Assembly: GCA_903882335.1 (NCBI GenBank)
Contig: CAIRWP010000028.1
Location: 1 to 32,817 of the forward strand
Origin: an uncultured Opitutia bacterium
Lineage (GTDB): Bacteria; Verrucomicrobiota; Verrucomicrobiia; Opitutales; UBA953
Reading direction: 5' to 3'
Length of the DNA stretch: 32,817 nt
The notes under the pieces are model-generated. The model saw only the letters and a program-made list of their open reading frames with translations. It ran no database searches and was not told where the DNA came from. Shown here piece by piece: positions 1,544 to 14,274 of the stretch; the first letter of the stretch is position 1; each line of letters opens with the position of its first letter. The translations under genes and the position numbers were made by a program.

Positions 1544-2389
1544 ATGGAGGTCGTCCACACCATCCCCGAACTGCGCGCGGCGGTGGCCCGAGCCCGGCAA
1601 GCCGGCCGGACCATCGGGTTCGTGCCGACGATGGGTTGCCTGCACGAAGGGCATCTCGCCCTCATCCGCCGGGCGAAAGCCGAAACCGGCTATGTCGTCG
1701 TCTCGATCTTCGTGAACCCGACCCAGTTCGGACCGAACGAGGATTTCGCCAAGTACCCCCGCACGCTCGCCAACGACGTCGCCGGGAGCGCCACCGCGGG
1801 GGCCGACCTCGTCTTCGCGCCCGCGACCGAGGACTTCTACGCGCCCGGCGCCTCGACCTGGGTCGAGGAGACGTTCGTGAGCGAGGGCCTGTGCGGAGAG
1901 TTCCGTCCGGGGCACTTCCGCGGCGTCACGACGGTGGTCGCCATGCTCTTCAATGCCGTCCAACCCGACGTCGCGGTCTTCGGCCGGAAGGACCTGCAAC
2001 AGCTCGCCGCCCTGCGCCGCATGGTCCGCGACCTGCTCTTCCCGCTCCGGATCATCGCCCATGAGACGGTCCGCGAAGCCAACGGCGTGGCGATGAGTTC
2101 GCGGAACCGCTACCTTTCGCCCGCGGACTTCGCCAAGGCGACGGCCATCCCGGCCGCCCTCGCCGTGGCCCAGGCCTTGGTCGCCGCCGGGGAACGCGAC
2201 GCCGGCCGGGTCCGGTCCGCGGCCCTCGCCCGCCTCGCGGCGGAACCGGCCCTCCGCCCCCAGTATTGCCAGGTGGTGGACGCGGAGACCTTGCGGCCGG
2301 TGGACCAAGTCACCCCAGGCCGGACGGTGCTGGCGGTGGCCGGTCACCTCGGGGCGACCCGCCTGATCGACAACGCCGACCTCGGTTGA
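1544..2389 (+). CDS. panC: Pantothenate synthetase (pantoate--beta-alanine ligase)
   Basis: 281-aa ORF with GFVPTMGCLHEGHLALIRRAK, VSIFVNPTQFGPNEDFAKYPRT, VFGRKDLQQL and VREANGVAMSSRNRYLSP. Confidence 0.97.
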   Translation: MEVVHTIPELRAAVARARQAGRTIGFVPTMGCLHEGHLALIRRAKAETGYVVVSIFVNPTQFGPNEDFAKYPRTLANDVAGSATAGADLVFAPATEDFYAPGASTWVEETFVSEGLCGEFRPGHFRGVTTVVAMLFNAVQPDVAVFGRKDLQQLAALRRMVRDLLFPLRIIAHETVREANGVAMSSRNRYLSPADFAKATAIPAALAVAQALVAAGERDAGRVRSAALARLAAEPALRPQYCQVVDAETLRPVDQVTPGRTVLAVAGHLGATRLIDNADLG

Positions 2390-2398
2390 GCGGAAAAA

Positions 2399-2427
2399 GG
2401 CGGCAAGTCCCCTTGCGGGGACTCGCC
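2399..2427. other. Strong hairpin in the panC-to-NYN gene gap (terminator-like only when read on the minus strand)
   Basis: AGTCCCC-TTGC-GGGGACT with outer GGCG/CGCC pairing. An A-run (ggaaaaagg) precedes it on +, giving a T-run after the stem on -. Confidence 0.5.
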
Positions 2428-2446
2428 GAGGGGTCAGACTTGAGGG

Positions 2447-4273
2447 ATGGGACAATTTGCCTACAAGAACGAGGTGCTGGAGCCGCTGCGCCGGGTCCTC
2501 TCCGAGCAACTGGTCATGGACCTCAACCACGTCGCGGATGGCCCGCTGCTCGCGATGGCCAAGAAAATCCCCGGCGGGTACATCCACCGAAAGCCCTTTC
2601 TCCGCGATGCCAAGTGGCGCTTCCAGAAACGCCTCGCCCACCTGACCCAGGACGCCGCGGCCATCGCGGATCACCTCCCGTGGTACCAAGAAACGCTGAA
2701 AAGCGATAAGGCCAAGCTCGGCGAGCACCTTGATGAGTTGGCCGCGGTGATCGGTGGCCCCCGCGCCGCCCTCCTCTGTGTGCTCTGGAACGAGCAAGCC
2801 ACACAGAAGGATGCGACGCTCCCCGCCGACTGGCTCGCCCGGCTGGTCGCCCTTTCCAAGCCCCAAGCGGGCAAACCGGAGACGAAGGCCTGGAAGGCCC
2901 TCCTCGCCAAGCTGGTAGAGACGCCGGGGAAGGAACCCCTGGACTCGGCCGACGCCCTGGACTCGGCCGACCGCACGCTCCGGCGCCTGCAACAGGAAAT
3001 CGCGCAGGGCAAGGCGGCGCGCGAAAATGAAGGCCGCCAAATCCGCCGCCAGCACGCCAATGAACTTGAGACGAAGGACGGCGAGATCCGCAAGGCCCGG
3101 GAGGAAGCCGCCAAGTCCCTCCAAGAGGCCGCCAAGCTGGGCGCGAACCTGGAGTCGCAGGTCCAGTCGTTGCAGGCCAAGCTGACCAAGGAGGAGGAAG
3201 AAGTGGCCCGGCTCCGCGGCGAACTCGATCGCGCCCGCGAGCAGGTCGCGAAGAAGGCCCGGGAAATCGCCGAGGAACTCCTCTCCGAGGAAGTCCGTCC
3301 TTGGCTGGCCGATGCCCGGATCCTGAAGGCCGCCTCAGAGGAAGTCGCCAAACTCCGCCAGCTCACCTCGGAGACGGTGGAGAAAGTCCGCAAGGCGCAA
3401 CGGGACGCCGACCCCTTCCTGGCGAAGGAACACCAACTCCGTCAGGCCATCCCGCAGATGGAGGAAATGCTCAAGCTCCTCCGCCGCTACCAGCGGACCG
3501 CGGTGCAGGCGCTGCCGGAAGTGACCGCGCTGGAACAGCGCATCACCGAGCACGTCGAGAAGGTCCGCTACGAACTGGAAAAGCGCGACCAGCCTTCCGA
3601 CCCCTTCCTCGAACGCATCTCCGCCAAGATCAACGTCGCCGACAGTCGCGAGTTGAAGTCGATCGAAAGCGCCCTGCTGCTGGCGGAACAGTCCGGCCTC
3701 GTCGATTCCCGGCACGCCGACCTTTACCGGCGCGACATCCATCGACGCCGCTCCTACCTGGCCGACCGCGATTTCCACGTCCAGAAACAATCCGGCCCGC
3801 TGGCCTTGCTGGAACGCGCGGCGGCGACGGGCGAGAAGGCCCGCTTGGCCGTCGACGCCAACAACTTTGCCTGCCTCCGCCAAGATTACCTCGGGCTCAG
3901 CCTCCCCACCAAGAAGAACGCCCAAGGTGAGACGCGCTTCCTGCTCGATGCCGCCGCCCGGCAGAAGGTCGTCCAACTGCTCGAGAAGCTGGCGGACGAC
4001 GCCACGGGGCTGCACGTGTGGGTCTGCTTCGACGGCCAACCCAGCCAGCTCCGGATCGGCAACCCGCGGCTCAAGGCGACGTTCAGCCGCGCGGGGGGCA
4101 AGGCGGACCACGACCTGATGGACCTCGTCGCCAAGGACAAGACCGTGGAGGCCCCTTGGTTTGTCGTCTCGGACGACATCGAGGTGCGCGACGCCACCGG
4201 CCGCGAGGGCGCCTACATCGTCTACAACGACGGGCTGGTGCAGTTGCTGGTGAACCGCGGGCTGAAACCCTAA
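2447..4273 (+). CDS. Large coiled-coil protein with C-terminal NYN/PIN-like (YacP-type) ribonuclease domain; uncharacterised
   Basis: 608 aa. Heptad-rich charged middle (RQHANELETKDGEIRKAREEAAKSLQEA...ESQVQSLQAKLTKEEEEVARLRGELDRAREQ). C-terminus LAVDANNFA...VWVCFDGQPS...AGGKADHDLMDLVAKD...WFVVSDDIEVRDATGREGAYIV matches the acidic motif pattern of NYN/PIN folds. Confidence 0.75.
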   Translation: MGQFAYKNEVLEPLRRVLSEQLVMDLNHVADGPLLAMAKKIPGGYIHRKPFLRDAKWRFQKRLAHLTQDAAAIADHLPWYQETLKSDKAKLGEHLDELAAVIGGPRAALLCVLWNEQATQKDATLPADWLARLVALSKPQAGKPETKAWKALLAKLVETPGKEPLDSADALDSADRTLRRLQQEIAQGKAARENEGRQIRRQHANELETKDGEIRKAREEAAKSLQEAAKLGANLESQVQSLQAKLTKEEEEVARLRGELDRAREQVAKKAREIAEELLSEEVRPWLADARILKAASEEVAKLRQLTSETVEKVRKAQRDADPFLAKEHQLRQAIPQMEEMLKLLRRYQRTAVQALPEVTALEQRITEHVEKVRYELEKRDQPSDPFLERISAKINVADSRELKSIESALLLAEQSGLVDSRHADLYRRDIHRRRSYLADRDFHVQKQSGPLALLERAAATGEKARLAVDANNFACLRQDYLGLSLPTKKNAQGETRFLLDAAARQKVVQLLEKLADDATGLHVWVCFDGQPSQLRIGNPRLKATFSRAGGKADHDLMDLVAKDKTVEAPWFVVSDDIEVRDATGREGAYIVYNDGLVQLLVNRGLKP

Positions 4274-4274
4274 A

Positions 4275-4300
4275 AGAAAAAGGCGCCCCAGCGGGGCGCC
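4275..4300 (-). terminator. Rho-independent terminator of the ThuA-like gene
   Basis: GGCGCCCC-AGC-GGGGCGCC at 4282-4300. On the minus strand it is followed by TTTTTCTTTTA, 22 nt after the ThuA stop. Confidence 0.85.
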
Positions 4301-4322
4301 TCGGCGGACCCGGGCGGGCGGC

Positions 4323-5405
4323 TTACTTGGCGGCGGGCTTCTTCGGCGCGGGCGCGGGCGCGGCCACCGGCTCGGGCAGCACCGCGGCGAAGGCCTCGGC
4401 CTTCAGCCCCTTGTGGAACTGGTTGAAGGAGTACTTGCTGGGCTTCCACTCGACGAGCGGGGTGGCGTCGGCGGCGGCCGGAACGTCGAGTTTGAGGCCC
4501 CAGAAGACGCCGTTGATCAGGAGGCGACGGAGCGACTCATCCTTGAGGTCGCTGGCGGAAGCCATGGTGGTGGTGAGGATGCGGTTGACGGTACCGGCCT
4601 CGTTCTTCAGTTCACGGGTCCAGGCGACGGCCATGGCGGGCTCGTTGATGCCCTGCTCCTGCTTGTCGGTCGCGCGCTTCTTGCGGCGCTCGCTGGGCGG
4701 GCTCTTCGGATCCATATCCTTCAGGACCACGCCACGCAGGAGCACCTGGGCGTCGGCGGGCGGGTAGGCCTCATAGACGTCGGTGTCGCCGAAAATGCTG
4801 GTCACGCCATTGAGGAGCGGGCTCTTTTCGGCACCGGGCTCGACGGCGGTGCGCGTCGCCTCGCCCTTGTGGTTGCCCCAGTGGCTCACCCAGGTCTCGC
4901 CGAGCACGTTCTTGCCGAAGCCACCCTTGCTGTTCCAGTTATAGGCGGCGAAGGGGCTTTCCTTGGGGATGCCGGCGAAGGCGTGGGTGCTGGTGCGCGT
5001 GGCGACGATCGGTACGCCGCGCTTCACGGCGGCGTCGAACTTGGCAAGGGCCGTCTCGTTCCACTTGCGGAAACGCAGGCCGAGCACGAGCGCGTCCGCG
5101 CCATCGAGGGCCTCGGGCTTGCCCAGCGAGGCGCCGTTGTTCGGATTGATGGTGCCGTCGGCATCGTGCGAGAATAGGACGACGCAATGGAACCCGTGGC
5201 GCTCCGCGAGGAGGCGGGCGAGCATGGGCAGCGACTCCTCCGAACGGTATTCCTCGTCGCCCGCGAGCAGGACGACGGTCTTGCCGGAGCCGGGGCCCTT
5301 GCCGCCGGGGAAGTCGAGCCAGCCAGGGCCGGAGGTGAAGGTCTCGGCCGCAGTGAGCGAGACCACGCAGAGCGTGGCGACCAGAAGGGAGAGGAGGCGT
5401 TTCAT
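4323..5405 (-). CDS. Secreted ThuA-like domain protein (trehalose-utilisation-like fold)
   Basis: Signal peptide MKRLLSLLVATLCVVSLTAAE; KTVVLLAGDEEYRSEESLPMLARLLAERHGF, DALVLGLRFRKW, THAFAGIP and WVSHWGNHKGEATRT resemble ThuA-like proteins of the PVC group. Ala/Pro/Lys-rich C-terminal tail. Confidence 0.8.
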   Translation of the reverse strand: MKRLLSLLVATLCVVSLTAAETFTSGPGWLDFPGGKGPGSGKTVVLLAGDEEYRSEESLPMLARLLAERHGFHCVVLFSHDADGTINPNNGASLGKPEALDGADALVLGLRFRKWNETALAKFDAAVKRGVPIVATRTSTHAFAGIPKESPFAAYNWNSKGGFGKNVLGETWVSHWGNHKGEATRTAVEPGAEKSPLLNGVTSIFGDTDVYEAYPPADAQVLLRGVVLKDMDPKSPPSERRKKRATDKQEQGINEPAMAVAWTRELKNEAGTVNRILTTTMASASDLKDESLRRLLINGVFWGLKLDVPAAADATPLVEWKPSKYSFNQFHKGLKAEAFAAVLPEPVAAPAPAPKKPAAK

Positions 5406-6243: not shown

Positions 6244-7632
6244 TTAGGCGATGACCTTGTCGACCACCTTACCGAAGTTGTCGGTCAGGCGGAAGTCGCG
6301 GCCGTTGTAGCGGTAAGTCAGCTTGGTGTGGTCGAAGCCGAGCAGGCGCAGGATCGTGGCGTGCAGGTCGTGGATATCCACGCCGTCGGAAGCGACCTGG
6401 GAGCCGATTTCGTCGGTCTCGCCGTAGTGCATACCGCCCTTGACGCCGCCGCCCGCCATCCAGCAGCAGAAGGCCTTGGCGTGGTGGTCGCGACCGGAGT
6501 TCTGGTTCACGCGGCCCGCGGTGGTCGGGGTGCGGCCGAACTCTCCGCCCCAGATGATCAGGGTCTGGTCGAGCAGACCGCGCTGCTTGAGGTCGGCGAT
6601 GAGCGCCGCCGCCGGCGTGTCGATCGCGCCGCCGGTGCGGGCGGCCGAGGTGAAGATGTTGGTGTGGTGGTCCCAGCCGCCCGCGTCCACCTGGACGAAG
6701 CGGACGCCGCGCTCGACGAGGCGGCGGGCGCAGAGGAGCTTGGCGCCGAGGTCGCTCTTGCCGTAGGCGTCGCGGGTCTTCTGCGACTCCTTGGAGATGT
6801 CGAAGGCGTCGGTCGCGGCGGTCTGCATGCGGAAGGCGAGCTCGAAGGACTCAATGCGGGCCTCCAGCTGCTCATCCTTCTGCACCGTCTGCATGTGGCG
6901 CTCGTTGAGCTGGCGGACGAGGTCGAGCTGCTTGCGCTGGGCCTCCTCGGTGGTGAACTCGCTCTGGAGGTTGGCGATGACCTTGTTGGCCGGAGCGCCG
7001 GGACGGAAGGAGGTCTTCGCACCCTGGAAGATGGAAGGCAGGAAGGCCGACTGGCGACCGTCCGCGCCGCCGCCGAGGCTGACGAAGCCCGGGAGGTCCT
7101 GGCTCTCGGTGCCGAGACCGTAGAGCACCCAGGAGCCGAGGCAGGGCTTAGTGAGGATCGCCGAGCCGGTGTGCATCAGCTTGGCGGCCGGACCGTGGGC
7201 CGGCAGGTCGGAGTGCATCGAGCGGATGACGCACATCTCGTCGGCCTGCTCCTGGAGCTTCGGGAAGATCTCGGAGATTTCGAGGCCGGACTTGCCGCAC
7301 TTCTTGAACTCGAAGGGCGTCGGGAAGATCACGCCGCCCTGGCCGGAGGTGGACTTCTCGGCGAAGGCCTTCATGCCGGGCTTGTAGTCGAAGGTGTCGA
7401 GGTGCGAAGGCGCGCCGCCGGCGAAGATGTGGATGACGTGCTTGGCCTTGGCCGGCAGCGGGGCCTTGCGGGGCTTGAGGTCGGCCGTGATCTCGGCGCG
7501 GGCCGGGGCGACGAGGTAGTCGGCGACCATGGTGCCGAAGGCGACGGTGCCGAGGCCCATGCCGGTCTGGCGGAGGAACTCCCGGCGCGAGTTGGGCGTC
7601 GGAAGGCTGTTGGAGCAGTTCTGGATTTCCAT
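6244..7632 (-). CDS. DUF1501 (sulfatase/alkaline-phosphatase-like) protein with Tat signal
   Basis: Start MEIQNCSNSLPTPNSRREFLRQTGMGLGTVAFG. DUF1501 hallmarks HVIHIFAGGAPSHLDTFDYKPG, GARLVERGVRFVQVDAGGWDHHTN-type block, LIIWGGEFGRTP, GRDHHAKAFCCWMAGGGVKGGMHYGETDEIG. Confidence 0.9.
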   Translation of the reverse strand: MEIQNCSNSLPTPNSRREFLRQTGMGLGTVAFGTMVADYLVAPARAEITADLKPRKAPLPAKAKHVIHIFAGGAPSHLDTFDYKPGMKAFAEKSTSGQGGVIFPTPFEFKKCGKSGLEISEIFPKLQEQADEMCVIRSMHSDLPAHGPAAKLMHTGSAILTKPCLGSWVLYGLGTESQDLPGFVSLGGGADGRQSAFLPSIFQGAKTSFRPGAPANKVIANLQSEFTTEEAQRKQLDLVRQLNERHMQTVQKDEQLEARIESFELAFRMQTAATDAFDISKESQKTRDAYGKSDLGAKLLCARRLVERGVRFVQVDAGGWDHHTNIFTSAARTGGAIDTPAAALIADLKQRGLLDQTLIIWGGEFGRTPTTAGRVNQNSGRDHHAKAFCCWMAGGGVKGGMHYGETDEIGSQVASDGVDIHDLHATILRLLGFDHTKLTYRYNGRDFRLTDNFGKVVDKVIA

Positions 7633-7663
7633 GATGTGGTTTGGTTTGGTTGTAGAAACGGGG

Positions 7664-10600
7664 TTAGTTGAGGTAGACGAATTCGTTGGAGCAGACCATG
7701 GCCTGGGCGAGCATCTCGATCGGGCTGACCGGACGCTTGTCGAGCTTGACGCCCTCGTTGACCAGGCCGGCGCCGGTGACCTTGGTCTTGGGGGCCTCGA
7801 CGGCGGCCACGAGCGGCGCGCTGGGGACAAGGGGCTTGTTCATGAGCTCGCGGGCCGTGGGCTTGGGGGCCTTGGCGACCGGGGCCGGCTTGGCCTTGGC
7901 GACGGGCTCGTCGATGAAGCCGGCGACCTTGCGGACGAAGTCGCGGGCGAACTTGAGCTCGGCGACGGTCGGCGACCGCTGGTACATGATCTTGTAGAGC
8001 TGGGCGATGCGCGCGTCCTCGGAGGAAGCACCGGTCACCTCGGGGCGGGCCGCGACGGCGCGGGCCACGACGATCGAGAGCTCGTTGTTCATGAAGAACA
8101 GCGCCTGCTGCGGCACGATGGTGGAGCCGCGCTTGGAGTTGGCCATGTCGGGGTCCGCGAAGTCGAACTGGGACTGGAGGTCGCTGAGGCGCTCGCGGTC
8201 GATGTAGCCGTAGATGCTGCGGCGGTAGCTGATCGGGTCCTCGGTGATGTTGACGGGGCGGCCGCCGAGCGTCGTGTCCATCTTGCCGGTGAGCATCAGC
8301 ATGGAGTCGCGGATGGATTCGAAGTCCAGGCGACGGAGGTTGGCGTGCCAGAGGTACTTGTTGGCGGCGTCGATCTTCAGGGGGTCGACGGCTCCCTTCT
8401 GGGTCATCAGCGCGTTGACCTGCGGGTTGGCGGACTGGCGGTAGGTCGCCGACATCAGGATGCGCTTGTGCAGCTTCTTCAGGGACCAGCCGTCGTCCAT
8501 GAAGCGCATGGACAGCCAGTCGAGCAGCTCGGGGTGCGTGGGCTTCTCCGCCATGTTGCCGAAGTCGTCGGGGGACGAGACGATGCCGGAGCCGAAGTGA
8601 TGGAGCCAGACGCGGTTGACGAGCACGCGGGGCGTCAGCGGGTTGGTGCGGTTGGCGATGGCCAGCGCCAGCTCCCGGCGGCCGCTGCCTTCGTAGAAGG
8701 GCTGGCGGTCGGGGCCGGCGAGGATCTCGAGGAACTGGCGCGGGGCGACGGCGCCCTTCTTGTTGCGGTCGCCGCGCAGGTAGACGTTGGTGTCGCGGGG
8801 CTTCTCGGCGTCGGCGACGGTCATCGCGGTGCCGGGGCCGCCCGGGTGCGTCAGGTCGAGGGCGTTGATGGCCTCGAACCGGAAGAAGCGCGTCGGGATG
8901 TTGCCGTTCTGGAAGGCCGGGGCGGACTGCCAGGACTCGCAGAAGGCGCGGGTGGAGACGAGCACCGTCATCTGGGTGGTCGTGGCGATCTCCTCGTAGT
9001 TGGGCGTCGGGAAGGGGTAGGCCGCCAGCTGGGCGAGCGCCTTGTCGTCCTGGTCGCCGCGCTTGCCGGGCGTGCCGCGCATCTGGAGGTGCGCCATGAT
9101 GCGGTCATGGTGCTTCACGAACAGCGCGTCGTAGGCGAAGGCGACGTCATCGAGGGACTTCGGCTTGAGGTTGCGCAGGGCCTCCGCGACGAGCGGGTTG
9201 ACCGCGAGTTTCTTGTCGGCCAGCGCGGCGGCGAGGATGGCGGGGGCCTTCTCGGCGAACTGGGCCTCGGGCACCGCGCGGAGGCGGGCCAGCGGACCGG
9301 TGACGGGCGAGTCGGAGCGGATCATCATCGCGCCGTCCACCTCGCGGTCGACGACGTACTTGTCCTTGTACTTCTGCTGCATGTCGTAGCCCTTCTCGCT
9401 ACGGACGCCGCCGGCGAGCGCGACCATGGCGCGGGCGCCGAAGCCCTTATGCAGGAGGGCAAGCTGGCCGCCGACGTACTTGTAGTAGCCGCGGACGTTC
9501 TCGTCCATGTACTGGCGAAGCTGCTTCTCGTAGTCGGCGCGGACGGCGGCGGGGGCGGTGCGGGCCCCGCGGATGACCGGGTCGACGAGCGGGTCGATGG
9601 TGGAGGCGAAGACGCCGTGCAGGGAGTAGTAGTCGGCGGCGGGGATCGGGTCGAACTTGTGGTCGTGGCAGCGGGCGCAGGAGACGGTCAGGCCGAGGAA
9701 GCCCTTGGTCGTCGTGTCGATGCGCTCGTCGATCGTGTCGTCGTTGTTGTCGAAGCGCTTGCCCACGGTGATGAAGCCGAGCGCGGCGAGGCGCGGGTCG
9801 TCCTTGGCCAGGTCGGGCAGGCGGTCGGCCGCGAGCTGCTCGATGATGAACTGGTCGTAAGGCTTGTCGGCGTTGAGCGAGTCGATGACGTAGTCGCGGT
9901 AGGTCCAGGCGTTGGCGGAGCGGTCGCCCTCGGCGCCGCCGCGACGCAGGCCCTTGGTGTCGGAGTAACGGGCGGTATCGAGCCAGTGGCGGGCCCAGCG
10001 CTCGCCGTAGCGCGGCGAGGCGAGCAAGCGGTCGATGGTGCGTTCGAGCACCAGCGAGGCGGAGCGGGCGGGCTGGCCGTTGCGGACCGCCAGAGCGTCG
10101 CGGATCACGGCGGCGTCGAAATCGCGGGAGAAGGCGTCGGACTCGGCGTTGGTGGGCGGCAGGCCGTGGAGGTCGTAGGTGAGGCGGCGCAGCAGCGCCT
10201 CGCCGTCGGCGGTGGGATTGGGCTTGAGGCCCACCGCGTCGAGCTTGGCCAGGATGAATGAGTCGATCTCGTTCTGGCACCAGGCGGGGGCGCTCAGCTT
10301 GGCCGGCACGGCCGGGTCCTGGACCGCCTTGAAGGCCCAGTGGTCGCGGGCCTTCTGCGAAAGTCCGGTGAGCTTATCGGCGCCGCCGGCCGGGGCCGGC
10401 GCGCCCATCAGGACCCACTTCTCCAAGGTCGCGATCTTCGCGTCGCTCAGCTTCGGACCCGACTTGCGGGGCGGCATCGAGAGCTCGGGATCCTCCTGGT
10501 GGACCGCGACGAGCAGCAGGGATTTCTTGAGGTTGCCGGGAACCACGGCGGGTCCTTGGTCGCCGCCGGCCAGCAGCGCCGCGCGCGAGTCCATGATCAG

Positions 10601-10852
10601 GCCACCCTTGGAGACGCCTTCGGCCGCGGAGTGGCACTTGTAGCAATGCTCGCTGAAGATCGGGCGGATGTTCTTCTCGAAGAACTCCAGTCCGGCGGGA
10701 TCCATCTTTTCCGGCGCCTTGGCCTCGGGCTTCGCCGCGGCGGGCTTGGCGGACATGGCCTCGGCCTCCATCTTCATCTCCTGGGCGCGCACGGCGACGA
10801 CGCCGAGCAGGAGAAGCGTGGCGAGTCGGAGACTGGACGGGAAAGTCGGCAT
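7664..10852 (-). CDS. PSCyt1 (planctomycete-type cytochrome c) - DUF1549 - DUF1553 protein (paralog 1)
   Basis: 1062 aa. FFEKNIRPIFSEHCYKCHS (CxxCH), RWARHWLDTARYSDT, KPYDQFIIEQLAADRLPD, LTVSCARCHDHKFDPI (second CxxCH), LVNRVWLHHFGSGIVSSPDDFGNM, NSKRGSTIVPQQALFFMNN, MLAQAMVCSNEFVYLN. Confidence 0.92.
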   Translation of the reverse strand: MPTFPSSLRLATLLLLGVVAVRAQEMKMEAEAMSAKPAAAKPEAKAPEKMDPAGLEFFEKNIRPIFSEHCYKCHSAAEGVSKGGLIMDSRAALLAGGDQGPAVVPGNLKKSLLLVAVHQEDPELSMPPRKSGPKLSDAKIATLEKWVLMGAPAPAGGADKLTGLSQKARDHWAFKAVQDPAVPAKLSAPAWCQNEIDSFILAKLDAVGLKPNPTADGEALLRRLTYDLHGLPPTNAESDAFSRDFDAAVIRDALAVRNGQPARSASLVLERTIDRLLASPRYGERWARHWLDTARYSDTKGLRRGGAEGDRSANAWTYRDYVIDSLNADKPYDQFIIEQLAADRLPDLAKDDPRLAALGFITVGKRFDNNDDTIDERIDTTTKGFLGLTVSCARCHDHKFDPIPAADYYSLHGVFASTIDPLVDPVIRGARTAPAAVRADYEKQLRQYMDENVRGYYKYVGGQLALLHKGFGARAMVALAGGVRSEKGYDMQQKYKDKYVVDREVDGAMMIRSDSPVTGPLARLRAVPEAQFAEKAPAILAAALADKKLAVNPLVAEALRNLKPKSLDDVAFAYDALFVKHHDRIMAHLQMRGTPGKRGDQDDKALAQLAAYPFPTPNYEEIATTTQMTVLVSTRAFCESWQSAPAFQNGNIPTRFFRFEAINALDLTHPGGPGTAMTVADAEKPRDTNVYLRGDRNKKGAVAPRQFLEILAGPDRQPFYEGSGRRELALAIANRTNPLTPRVLVNRVWLHHFGSGIVSSPDDFGNMAEKPTHPELLDWLSMRFMDDGWSLKKLHKRILMSATYRQSANPQVNALMTQKGAVDPLKIDAANKYLWHANLRRLDFESIRDSMLMLTGKMDTTLGGRPVNITEDPISYRRSIYGYIDRERLSDLQSQFDFADPDMANSKRGSTIVPQQALFFMNNELSIVVARAVAARPEVTGASSEDARIAQLYKIMYQRSPTVAELKFARDFVRKVAGFIDEPVAKAKPAPVAKAPKPTARELMNKPLVPSAPLVAAVEAPKTKVTGAGLVNEGVKLDKRPVSPIEMLAQAMVCSNEFVYLN

Positions 10853-10986
10853 GGGGTGGGTAGGTTTTAAGACACCGCTGGGGTAATTAAGTTACGGCGT
10901 TTCTGGGGGTTTCTGCGGGGCCTGAACTAGAGATAATTGTCTATTGTAAGCGGGGGGACTTCAAGCCGTAGATGAGGGGGACCCTA

Positions 10987-11013
10987 ATAAAAAAGGGGGC
11001 CTTAGCCCCCTTT
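10987..11013 (-). terminator. Rho-independent terminator of PSCyt1 paralog 2
   Basis: GGGGGC-CTTA-GCCCCC at 10995-11010. On the minus strand it is followed by TTTTTTATTAGGG, 25 nt after the stop at 11035. Confidence 0.85.
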
Positions 11014-11034
11014 CGCGAACGGCCTCGCCGCCGC

Positions 11035-14000
11035 TCAATTGACGTAGACGAACTCGTTCGAGAGCAGCAAGGTGTGCGCTAGCAACTCGATGGGAGTCAA
11101 GGGGTTGCGAGGGATGGTCTCGCCGACGTTCTGTAGGATACCCTCGGCCCCGCCGGTGCTCACGGACATCATCATGTCGTCCGGGGCCTCGACCTTCTTG
11201 GTGGCGGGGACGCCCTTCTTGGTCACGGACCCCTGGGAGGCGGCGACCGGGTTGGCGGGCTTGGCGTCCTTGCCGGACGTGCCCTTGGCGCTGGTCCGGC
11301 TCGAGCCGGAGGTCGCGGTCTTGGCGGTGCCGGTGGCCGGGGTGCCGCGGGCGGCGGCGAGGGCCATGGCCTTCTGCTTGTCGAGGAAATCGCGGGCGGC
11401 GCGGATCTCGTTGGAGGTCGCGCGGCGCTGGAAGATCGCCATGAACATCGCGTTGATGCGCGCGTCCTCGGAAAAGGCCTTCACGACGTCGGGGCGCGCG
11501 GCCACCGAGCGGGCGACTTCGACCGAGAGCGGGTTGTTCATGAAGAACAACGCCTGTTGCGGCACGATGGTCGAACCGCGCTTGGAGTTCGCCATGTCGG
11601 GGTCGGCGTAGTCGAACTGCGACAACGTGTCGTTGAGGCGGAGGCGGTCGACGTAGCCGTAGAGACTGCGGCGGTAGCTGTAGGGCTCATCGGTGATGTT
11701 GGCCGGCTGCCCGCCGACGGCGGGGCTCATCTTGCCCGTGAGGAGGATCATCGAGTCGCGGATCGACTCGAAGTCGAGCCGACGCAGGTTGCCGCGCCAC
11801 AGCAGACGGTTGGCGGCGTCGATCTTGAGCGGATCGACGGCCCCCTTGCGGGCCACCAGCGGGTTGAGGTTGGGGTTGGAATCCTGGCGGTAGGCCGAGC
11901 TGAGCATGACCTGGCGGTGCATGCGCTTGAGCGTCCAGCCGTTCTTGGTGAAGTCGTCGGCCAGCCAATCGAGCAGCTCCGGGTGCGAGGGCGGCACGGA
12001 CATGTTACCGAGGTCGTCGGGCGTCAGCACCAAGCCTTCGCCGAAATGCTTCAGCCAGAGGCGGTTCATCGCGACGCGCGGGGCGATGGGGTTGGTCTTG
12101 GCCACGATGGCCTTGGCCAGCTCGAGGCGACCGCTCCCGTCGTTGAAGGCAGGGCGGTCGCCCTGCGAGAGCGCCTCGAGGAAGCGACGCGGGACCGTGG
12201 GACCGCGCTTATTCTTGTCGCCGCGCAGGTAGACGTAGCTGTCGCGGGGGCTGGCGGCATCCTGAATCGCCATGGCCTCGCGCGGGGCGCCGGGGTGGGA
12301 GAGGCGCAGCTCGTTGACCTGGGCCCAGCGGAAATAGGCGCCAGGCTTGCGGTTATTCTGGCCGCCGAAGACCGGACGGTTCTGCCAGTCGGCACAGAAC
12401 TTACGGGTATCAAAGAGCGCGATGCACTCCTCGTTCTCGAGGATCTCCTCGACGTCGGGCAGCGGCCACGGGTAGGCCGCCATCTGCGCGATCGCCGGCG
12501 GCGTCTGCTTGCTCGAGCGGCCGGGCGTCGCGCAACGGTCGATGTGCGCAAGGATGGAGGCCTTGCTGTCGTTGTAGGCCTTCTGGTAGGCCAGGGCGAC
12601 GTCGTCGATGGTCTTGGGCTTGAGGCCGCGCAGGGCCGAGGCGATGAGCGGGTTGACCGGGTTCTTGGGGTCGTTCAAGGCGGCGGCGAGCACGCCGGCG
12701 GCGCGCTCCTCGAACACCGCGACGGGAATGGCCGCCACGCGGGCGAACGGTCCGGTGATGGGGGAGTCGGCCTGGATGCGCATCGGCTCGAAGTCCGGCA
12801 AGGGCGTCTCCAGCTTGTACTTCTCGTTCACGTCGCCCCACTCGATCGAACCGCGCTTGAGCGTGGCGGCGACCAGGCGACCGGCCATCTCGCGGTCGTA
12901 GCGGGCGCGCATGTCCTTAAAGTACTTGTAGTAGCCGGCGGCGCTCTCCGCCTGCAGCTGATCGAGGCGTTTCTGGAAGTCGACCTTCAGGGTCGCGCCC
13001 TGGGGACCCGCGGTGATACCCGGCCGCTGGAGCGGCTCGATCGTCGAGGCGAAGATGCCGTGGAGCGAGTAGTAGTCGGCGGCGGGGATCGGGTCGAACT
13101 TGTGGTCGTGGCAGCGCGCGCAGGAGACCGTCAGGCCGAGGAAGGCCTTTGTCGTGGTGTCGATGCGCTCGTCGATCGTGTCGTCGATGTTGTCGAAGCG
13201 CTTGCCGATGGTGATGAAGCCGAGGGCCGCGAGGCGGGAGTCGTCGGGCTTGATGTCCGGGAGCTTGTCGGCGGCGAGCTGCTCGATCACGAAGCGGTCG
13301 TAGGGCTTGTCCGTGTTGAGCGCGTCGATGACGTAATCGCGGTAAGTCCAGGCGAAGGCGTAGCGGTAGTCCTCGTAGAGGCTCTTGCCCTGGTCGACCG
13401 GCAGACCGCGCGTGTCGGAGTAGCGGGCCGTATCGAGCCAGTGGCGGCCCCAGCGCTCGCCGTAGTGCGGCGAAGCCAGGAGGAAGTCGACCTGCTTGGC
13501 GACGACGGCGTCGACGTTGCCGGCCGGGGTGCCGCGACGGACGGCGGCGGCGTCGGCCGCGGCCGCGGCGTCATGGGCGCGGGTGAAGGCGATGACCTGG
13601 TCGGCGGTGGGCGGCAGGCCGAGGAGGTCGTAGGACATGCGGCGCAGGAGGGCCTCCGGGTCGGCGGCCGGATTGGGCGCGAGGCCGGCGGCCTCGAGCT
13701 TGGCGAGGATGAAGGCGTCGATCGGGCCCTTGACCCAGGCCTTGTTCTTCACCTCCGGCGGCGTGACGGCCTTGAGCGGGAGGTAGGCCCAGTGCTGCTT
13801 GGCCTTCTCGGTCAGGCCGGTGAGTTTGTTGCCGTTGCCGGCCGGGGCGGGGGCGCCCATCTTGACCCACTTCTCGAGCGCGGCGATCTTGGCGTCGGCA
13901 ATCTTACCGCCCTTCTTCTTCGGCGGCATGGCGATCTCGGGGTCGCCGTAATGGACGGCCAACAACAGGAGCGACTTGGCGACGTTGCCAGGCACCACGG

Positions 14001-14229
14001 CCGGACCTTGGTCGCCGCCCTTGAGCATCCCGTCGCGCGAATCGAGGATCAGGCCACCTTTCGAGGCGCCCTTTTCGATCGAGTGGCACTCGTAGCAATG
14101 CTCGGCGAAGATCGGGCGGATAGTCTTCTCGAAGAACTCGAGGCCCTCCTTGGTCGGCTCATCGGCGGCGAGCAACAGCGGACCGGCGGTCAGCACGGCG
14201 AGCAAGGGAAGGAAACGGCGCGGGGTCAT
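11035..14229 (-). CDS. PSCyt1 - DUF1549 - DUF1553 protein (paralog 2)
   Basis: Start taken at MTPRRFLPLLAVLTAGPLLLAAD (the ORF extends to 14253). FFEKTIRPIFAEHCYECHS, RWGRHWLDTARYSDT, SCARCHDHKFDPIPAADYYSLHG, NSKRGSTIVPQQALFFMNN, LLAHTLLLSNEFVYVN. Confidence 0.92.
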   Translation of the reverse strand: MTPRRFLPLLAVLTAGPLLLAADEPTKEGLEFFEKTIRPIFAEHCYECHSIEKGASKGGLILDSRDGMLKGGDQGPAVVPGNVAKSLLLLAVHYGDPEIAMPPKKKGGKIADAKIAALEKWVKMGAPAPAGNGNKLTGLTEKAKQHWAYLPLKAVTPPEVKNKAWVKGPIDAFILAKLEAAGLAPNPAADPEALLRRMSYDLLGLPPTADQVIAFTRAHDAAAAADAAAVRRGTPAGNVDAVVAKQVDFLLASPHYGERWGRHWLDTARYSDTRGLPVDQGKSLYEDYRYAFAWTYRDYVIDALNTDKPYDRFVIEQLAADKLPDIKPDDSRLAALGFITIGKRFDNIDDTIDERIDTTTKAFLGLTVSCARCHDHKFDPIPAADYYSLHGIFASTIEPLQRPGITAGPQGATLKVDFQKRLDQLQAESAAGYYKYFKDMRARYDREMAGRLVAATLKRGSIEWGDVNEKYKLETPLPDFEPMRIQADSPITGPFARVAAIPVAVFEERAAGVLAAALNDPKNPVNPLIASALRGLKPKTIDDVALAYQKAYNDSKASILAHIDRCATPGRSSKQTPPAIAQMAAYPWPLPDVEEILENEECIALFDTRKFCADWQNRPVFGGQNNRKPGAYFRWAQVNELRLSHPGAPREAMAIQDAASPRDSYVYLRGDKNKRGPTVPRRFLEALSQGDRPAFNDGSGRLELAKAIVAKTNPIAPRVAMNRLWLKHFGEGLVLTPDDLGNMSVPPSHPELLDWLADDFTKNGWTLKRMHRQVMLSSAYRQDSNPNLNPLVARKGAVDPLKIDAANRLLWRGNLRRLDFESIRDSMILLTGKMSPAVGGQPANITDEPYSYRRSLYGYVDRLRLNDTLSQFDYADPDMANSKRGSTIVPQQALFFMNNPLSVEVARSVAARPDVVKAFSEDARINAMFMAIFQRRATSNEIRAARDFLDKQKAMALAAARGTPATGTAKTATSGSSRTSAKGTSGKDAKPANPVAASQGSVTKKGVPATKKVEAPDDMMMSVSTGGAEGILQNVGETIPRNPLTPIELLAHTLLLSNEFVYVN

Positions 14230-14274
14230 GGCGAGAGGATGAAGGGATGACAAGGGGGAGGTCCGAAGGTTGCA

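Follow-up and report, generated by a model that had tools for sequence, protein, structure and literature searches.

The NYN gene and its neighbours

The window, that is, the whole stretch of 32,817 nucleotides analysed here, carries a 608-aa open reading frame on the plus strand between panC and a convergent gene:

1544-2389, plus strand: panC, the upstream neighbour (PF02569, 6e-99), conserved across the genus
2447-4273, plus strand: coding sequence of the 608-aa long NYN protein, with orthologues in 44 of 55 genus genomes and under purifying selection
4323-5405, minus strand: convergent neighbour of 360 aa, matching no Pfam family and kept in most of the genus

The frame opens with ATG, 57 bp downstream of panC, and the order panC, NYN gene, 360-aa gene is found by synteny in most of the genus. 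Its position, strand and length are as the original prediction described them, and all four motifs quoted there are present, namely LAVDANNF (aa 467-474), VCFDGQPS (526-533), GKADHDLMDLV (551-561) and VVSDDIEVRDATGREGAYIV (573-592). Because a profile search recovered orthologues in 44 of the 55 genus genomes, the protein start MGQFAYKN is conserved, and dN lies far below dS in all segments (dN/dS below 1 throughout), conservation marks 2447-4273 as a real gene. By dN/dS, constraint is highest in the middle module of the protein and lowest in the N-terminal domain and the coiled coil.

An operon with panC is unsupported, given a hairpin between the two genes and an unrelated transporter-like gene at this position in other clades. 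In one part of the genus only (L022-L043, L049, L053), a membrane transporter-like gene lies on the opposite strand between panC and the NYN gene. A toxin-antitoxin pair of the VapBC PIN type was also rejected, as the protein is 608 aa long and its neighbours are panC and the convergent 360-aa gene, with no small antitoxin gene adjacent; no antitoxin-like partner was seen beside the NYN gene. Elsewhere in the window (6244-14253), a DUF1501 gene adjoins two tandem PSCyt1-PSCyt2-PSD1 genes of planctomycete cytochrome type.

A predicted nuclease domain on a helical scaffold

The whole protein was modelled by AlphaFold2 with an alignment of 26 orthologues as input. In the predicted layout, residues 8-157 are helical and residues 159-174 form a linker of poor order; a single helix then spans 174-321, more helices follow as far as 461, and residues 465-603 make up an alpha/beta domain. 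Overall, the model has a low pTM (0.32), which is expected for domains that sit on a long helix. The parts are as follows:

2447-2920, plus strand: N-terminal all-helical domain, aa 1-158, 10 helices (AlphaFold2 pLDDT 93.2, pTM 0.88)
2966-3409, plus strand: long continuous helix or coiled coil, aa 174-321 (predicted helix with heptad-type periodicity)
3284-3829, plus strand: conserved helical middle module, aa 280-461 (most constrained segment; profile-profile match)
3833-4255, plus strand: predicted NYN/PIN-fold nuclease domain, aa 463-603 (PF05991, Foldseek, and hmmsearch to Rae1)
3854-3856, plus strand: codon of D470, metal-site aspartate in DANN (invariant in 25; aligns with the Asp of Rae1 LLVDGYN)
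4031-4033, plus strand: codon of D529, metal-site aspartate in FDG (invariant; aligns with VVFD of Rae1)
4106-4108, plus strand: codon of D554, metal-site aspartate in KADHD (24 of 25; aligns with ETAD of Rae1)
4175-4177, plus strand: codon of D577, metal-site aspartate, second D of SDD (invariant; aligns with TSD of Rae1)

The N-terminal region, which the original prediction had not recognised, folds confidently when modelled alone (values above), and a structure search against the PDB found no match to this fold (best E 1.2, probability 0.04). The long charged coiled coil proposed earlier is borne out by a predicted helix of 148 unbroken residues (174-321), in which a strong hydrophobic repeat of 3.5 residues is found (p=0.0005) and 42% of residues are charged; its C-terminal limit needs correction, since the helix reaches about 321 rather than 290. 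The middle module overlaps the end of this helix and carries the RPWL and QRDADPFLAKEHELRQAIPQMEEM motifs, and its dN/dS is about 0.05-0.17 where dS is unsaturated. With the middle module being the most constrained part of the protein, the scaffold appears not to be passive. The full protein, searched as a single sequence against the PDB and NCBIfam, gave coiled-coil noise only.

The C-terminal domain can be assigned to NYN_YacP with confidence, as had been predicted. PF05991 is matched by all 26 aligned orthologues (best 8.3e-8); taken singly, the window protein reaches 19.8 bits, under the gathering score of 24.6 bits. The top three Foldseek matches in the PDB are Bacillus subtilis Rae1/YacP (including 5mq8/5mq9; probability 1.0, E 1.7e-3 to 4e-3). 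A profile built from 25 diverged long NYN domains, which outside the genus share about 14-25% identity with the window protein, matches Rae1/YacP in the PDB at 2.3e-9 by hmmsearch, aligning with Rae1 residues 4-109 of 181 only. All 25 domains keep D470, N473, D529, G530, A553 and D577 (numbered as in the window protein), and 24 keep D554. The fold is thus predicted to be NYN/PIN-like, and the acidic motifs, which the original prediction had placed at metal-binding positions, are kept in diverged homologues, with four aspartates aligning to those of Rae1. Neither of the two outcomes that would have refuted the original prediction was observed. For the SDD pair, the claim holds for the second aspartate, D577; the first is not invariant beyond the genus.

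Work on a related NYN enzyme assigned three aspartates of this kind to its active site, and Mn-dependent cleavage was lost when the first was mutated (PMC11346440). Because the acidic site is kept in the long proteins and the cited enzyme needs such aspartates, RNase activity of the window protein is likely. It is improbable that the protein is instead a structural or RNA-binding protein whose NYN domain no longer cuts: conservation of the middle module above the NYN domain and the weak PF05991 match would suit such a role, but the four aspartates persist across about 14-25% identity with one exception among 25 (D554), in contrast to a class of NYN-like proteins of 170-300 aa in which the first aspartate is seemingly lost.

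Exchange, absence and distribution of the long form

Over the 32.8 kb, the window is about 95% identical to the close relative BS10 (L054) and on average about 82% identical to L021. The NYN gene is the sole gene that departs from this pattern, being 50-83% identical to BS10 and 98% identical to the more distant L021. The features of the exchange are:

2400-4315, no strand: exchanged segment, departing from BS10 (L054) and matching L021, with flanks showing the opposite
2401-2428, no strand: hairpin at the left limit of the exchange, separating panC from the NYN gene, with a 12-bp stem; it resembles a terminator on the minus strand
4280-4302, no strand: hairpin at the right limit of the exchange, separating the NYN gene from its convergent neighbour, with a 10-bp stem

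The breakpoints lie at these hairpins, within some tens of bases of the open reading frame. For the NYN tree, a grouping of the window with BS10 is rejected (p-AU 7e-11), whereas panC and the convergent neighbour join both (98). L055 carries another divergent NYN allele between conserved flanks. In addition, the congener G057 (99% complete) has no NYN match; on its contig C8 (41465-43403; L217, L220), panC matches as far as 42298 and the neighbour from 42393, about 95 bp apart. The locus in G057 is a clean empty site from which the NYN gene is precisely absent, and the NYN gene beside panC behaves as an exchangeable cassette that is swapped as a single gene.

That the swap is an assembly chimera, the NYN gene being an ordinary, vertically inherited one, is very improbable. 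The genome assembly of the window is fragmented (375 contigs), as such a reading would have it, but the reading would require two false joins in the space of 2 kb, each falling at the edge of a gene; the junctions show no long stretch of exact identity, L055 is independently similar, and L021 has the same allele on its own 204-kb contig. As a separate observation, a contig titled Polynucleobacter meluiroseus (L036) has an Opitutae NYN locus and comes from a mislabelled or contaminated MAG.

Beyond the genus, a profile of genus orthologues found no match in four sister genera, and most genomes of the order have a short YacP of 150-220 aa instead. To restrict the family to one genus would be wrong, as that impression is an artefact of the close-orthologue profile; PF05991 together with long open frames revealed a wider family. 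Across the phylum, PF05991 also gives weak scores to a further size class of proteins, about 570-740 aa long, seventeen of which were aligned as a phylum-wide set. Profile-profile comparison of the genus alignment with this set gave 99.4% probability over 311 columns, and by segment the middle modules (95.8% over 133 columns) and the NYN domains (96.4%) match their counterparts only. The N-terminal domains of the genus and of the rest of the phylum match weakly (14% probability; off-diagonal controls null), and homology between them is not claimed at that probability. Outside its build set, the seventeen-member profile found further genomes and families with full-length matches (about positions 1-597); these matches and the homologous middle module support the scaffold as part of the same protein.

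Of the 338 Verrucomicrobiota genomes sampled, 37 have full-length long relatives; they belong to 13 families, with the genus of the window counted. The architecture is therefore no one-off: the whole protein is a long-scaffold variant of NYN_YacP from a little-recognised Verrucomicrobiota family. Relatives were sought in plasmids, phages and viral contigs and none were found; the phylum-wide alignment was too diverse for a viral scan. A third NYN-like class in the phylum, of 170-300 aa (L156, L157, L211-L216), seemingly lost the first catalytic aspartate and co-occurs with short YacP in several genomes.

A first domain tree of 25 long and 19 short domains parts the two forms by a branch of 99/98. 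When 14 weaker single-domain proteins were added, a branch of 97/90 parted all long forms and five shorter proteins from the rest, Rae1 included. Strict monophyly of the long forms fails in this wider tree (p-AU 0.02), the five shorter proteins falling on the long side. The trees place the long branch as a subfamily of NYN_YacP that is distinct from Rae1.

Short YacP is present in 105 of the 338 genomes, and the two forms occur together in 1 genome against 11.5 expected (Fisher p=8e-6), although families are not independent and the exclusion is suggestive only. This near-exclusion underlies the main rival to the role proposed below, in which the long protein replaces short YacP/Rae1 in particular lineages as a housekeeping RNase of mRNA decay, possibly on the ribosome, where the short form was lost. 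Rae1 being a ribosomal A-site endonuclease (PMC6613710, PMC12320835), such a replacement is possible. The counts, however, track families, so that common descent rather than function may explain the exclusion, neither form was detected in the sister genera and many genomes of the same order, the window protein lacks the C-terminal extension of Rae1, and the gene is precisely absent from the 99%-complete congener.

A proposed conditional role and comparison with known systems

The reading that we prefer, at a probability of about 0.5, is a conditional NYN RNase that is dimerized by its coiled coil and gated via its middle module. The C-terminal domain would be an endoribonuclease of the NYN/PIN fold that depends on metal, with the large helical scaffold controlling its activity. 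We infer that the coiled coil forms a homodimer holding two NYN domains, that the variable N-terminal domain selects the target or the site of action, and that the middle module couples the N-terminal and NYN domains and gates cleavage. The gene most likely acts conditionally, in response to stress or foreign RNA, rather than as a constant housekeeping RNase, because it is dispensable, exchanged as a unit and mostly missing from the small genomes of the genus, and because a paralogue occurs in defence-type clusters. A role in RNA quality control or in a stress or toxin response, as originally suggested, is possible. Several points weigh against conditional action: the window gene has a fixed place beside panC without recognised defence neighbours, a useful ordinary gene could also be under strong purifying selection and be found in 44 of 55 genomes, and the neighbours of the paralogue need not reveal the function of the window gene, those across the phylum being mixed.

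The paralogue, a second long NYN protein with the same domain layout, is found in three genomes of the genus; its copies are 38-76% identical mutually and about 21-24% identical to the window protein. Its neighbours differ among the three genomes and include a PD-T4-3-like GIY-YIG protein (3.8e-43), PDC-S14 (1.9e-100), an HNH nuclease, a P-loop/HAD protein, a beta-CASP protein, a Schlafen-type helicase and a kinase-PP2C-vWA trio, so that the three loci (L160 2893-11042, L161 3703-7105, L196 3761-13507) look defence-like. GIY-YIG (PD-T4-3-like) and HNH genes are present in the islands of L160 and L196; in L161 and L196, the paralogue is followed by a protein joining a P-loop kinase and an HAD phosphatase, a layout like that of polynucleotide kinase-phosphatase. 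In a distant family (L155 3309-6831), two long NYN genes lie in tandem with an 8 bp overlap after a vWA gene, and at the related L151 a mechanosensitive channel gene adjoins the vWA gene. In another distant family, a protein kinase gene follows the long NYN gene; elsewhere in the phylum the neighbours are ordinary. Beside the window gene itself, no recognised defence genes were found. PADLOC gave no family for the window protein beyond weak coiled-coil matches, those to LmuB/JetC being discarded as coiled-coil similarity.

A narrower form of the conditional RNase, rather doubtful at present, is an RNase of anti-phage or other conflict with an N-terminal sensor, the alleles of which are exchanged under selection by invaders. 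It draws on the single-gene allelic exchange and presence or absence at a fixed locus, on the greater variation of the N-terminal domain and coiled coil than of the middle and NYN parts, and on the paralogue islands and the tandem copies; the lack of recognised defence neighbours at the window gene, of homologues found in phages or plasmids, and of dN/dS values other than well below 1 in all segments speaks against it. As a tentative extension, a defence class could be envisaged in which a sensor of new fold at the N-terminus signals through the coiled-coil dimer and middle module to an NYN pair that cuts RNA, the whole being carried as an exchangeable cassette. If true, this would represent an unnamed, Verrucomicrobiota-wide class of scaffolded NYN ribonucleases defending against invaders.

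For the conditional RNase in general, the question is testable because the single-gene swap and the clean empty site provide natural alleles and absences within one genus. For NYN RNases that cleave mRNA on bacterial ribosomes, the model is Rae1/YacP. A separate, ancient NYN branch on a large conserved scaffold, with a predicted fold that has no PDB match, would widen the known control of bacterial RNA cleavage.

In the literature searched, which did not extend to key Rae1 and PIN classification papers, no description of the scaffolded-NYN architecture was found. Actinobacterial proteins with an N-terminal coiled coil that are annotated as NYN/COG3688 possibly follow the same plan, a helical region, then a coiled coil and a NYN domain at the C-terminus, and such a similar layout may lower the novelty of the architecture. 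The CRISPR-associated NYN protein of Bacteroides, a Mn-dependent RNase (PMC11346440), and the NYN domain of MARF1 share the NYN fold with the window protein and have RNase activity that depends on conserved aspartates, but belong to other NYN subfamilies and contexts, where a coiled-coil scaffold is not described. The short YacPs of the same order and phylum (150-220 aa) share the domain family, but consist of a single domain with strong PF05991 scores, fall on the other side of the tree and almost never occur in the same genome as the long form. B. subtilis Rae1/YacP (PF05991), the ribosomal A-site endonuclease (PMC6613710; PMC12320835), has in common with the window domain the NYN/PIN fold, the four acidic positions and the D-x-x-N motif, and to this extent, in domain family and fold, the likeness to Rae1/YacP drawn in the original prediction stands. 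The window protein is nevertheless not a Rae1 orthologue, as it has 608 aa, lies on a separate side of the domain tree and lacks the C-terminal helical extension of Rae1, ending 31 residues past D577. The FD-A of Rae1 is FD-G in the window protein, and whereas Rae1 is a small single-domain protein, the window protein places a scaffold of about 460 aa before the domain.
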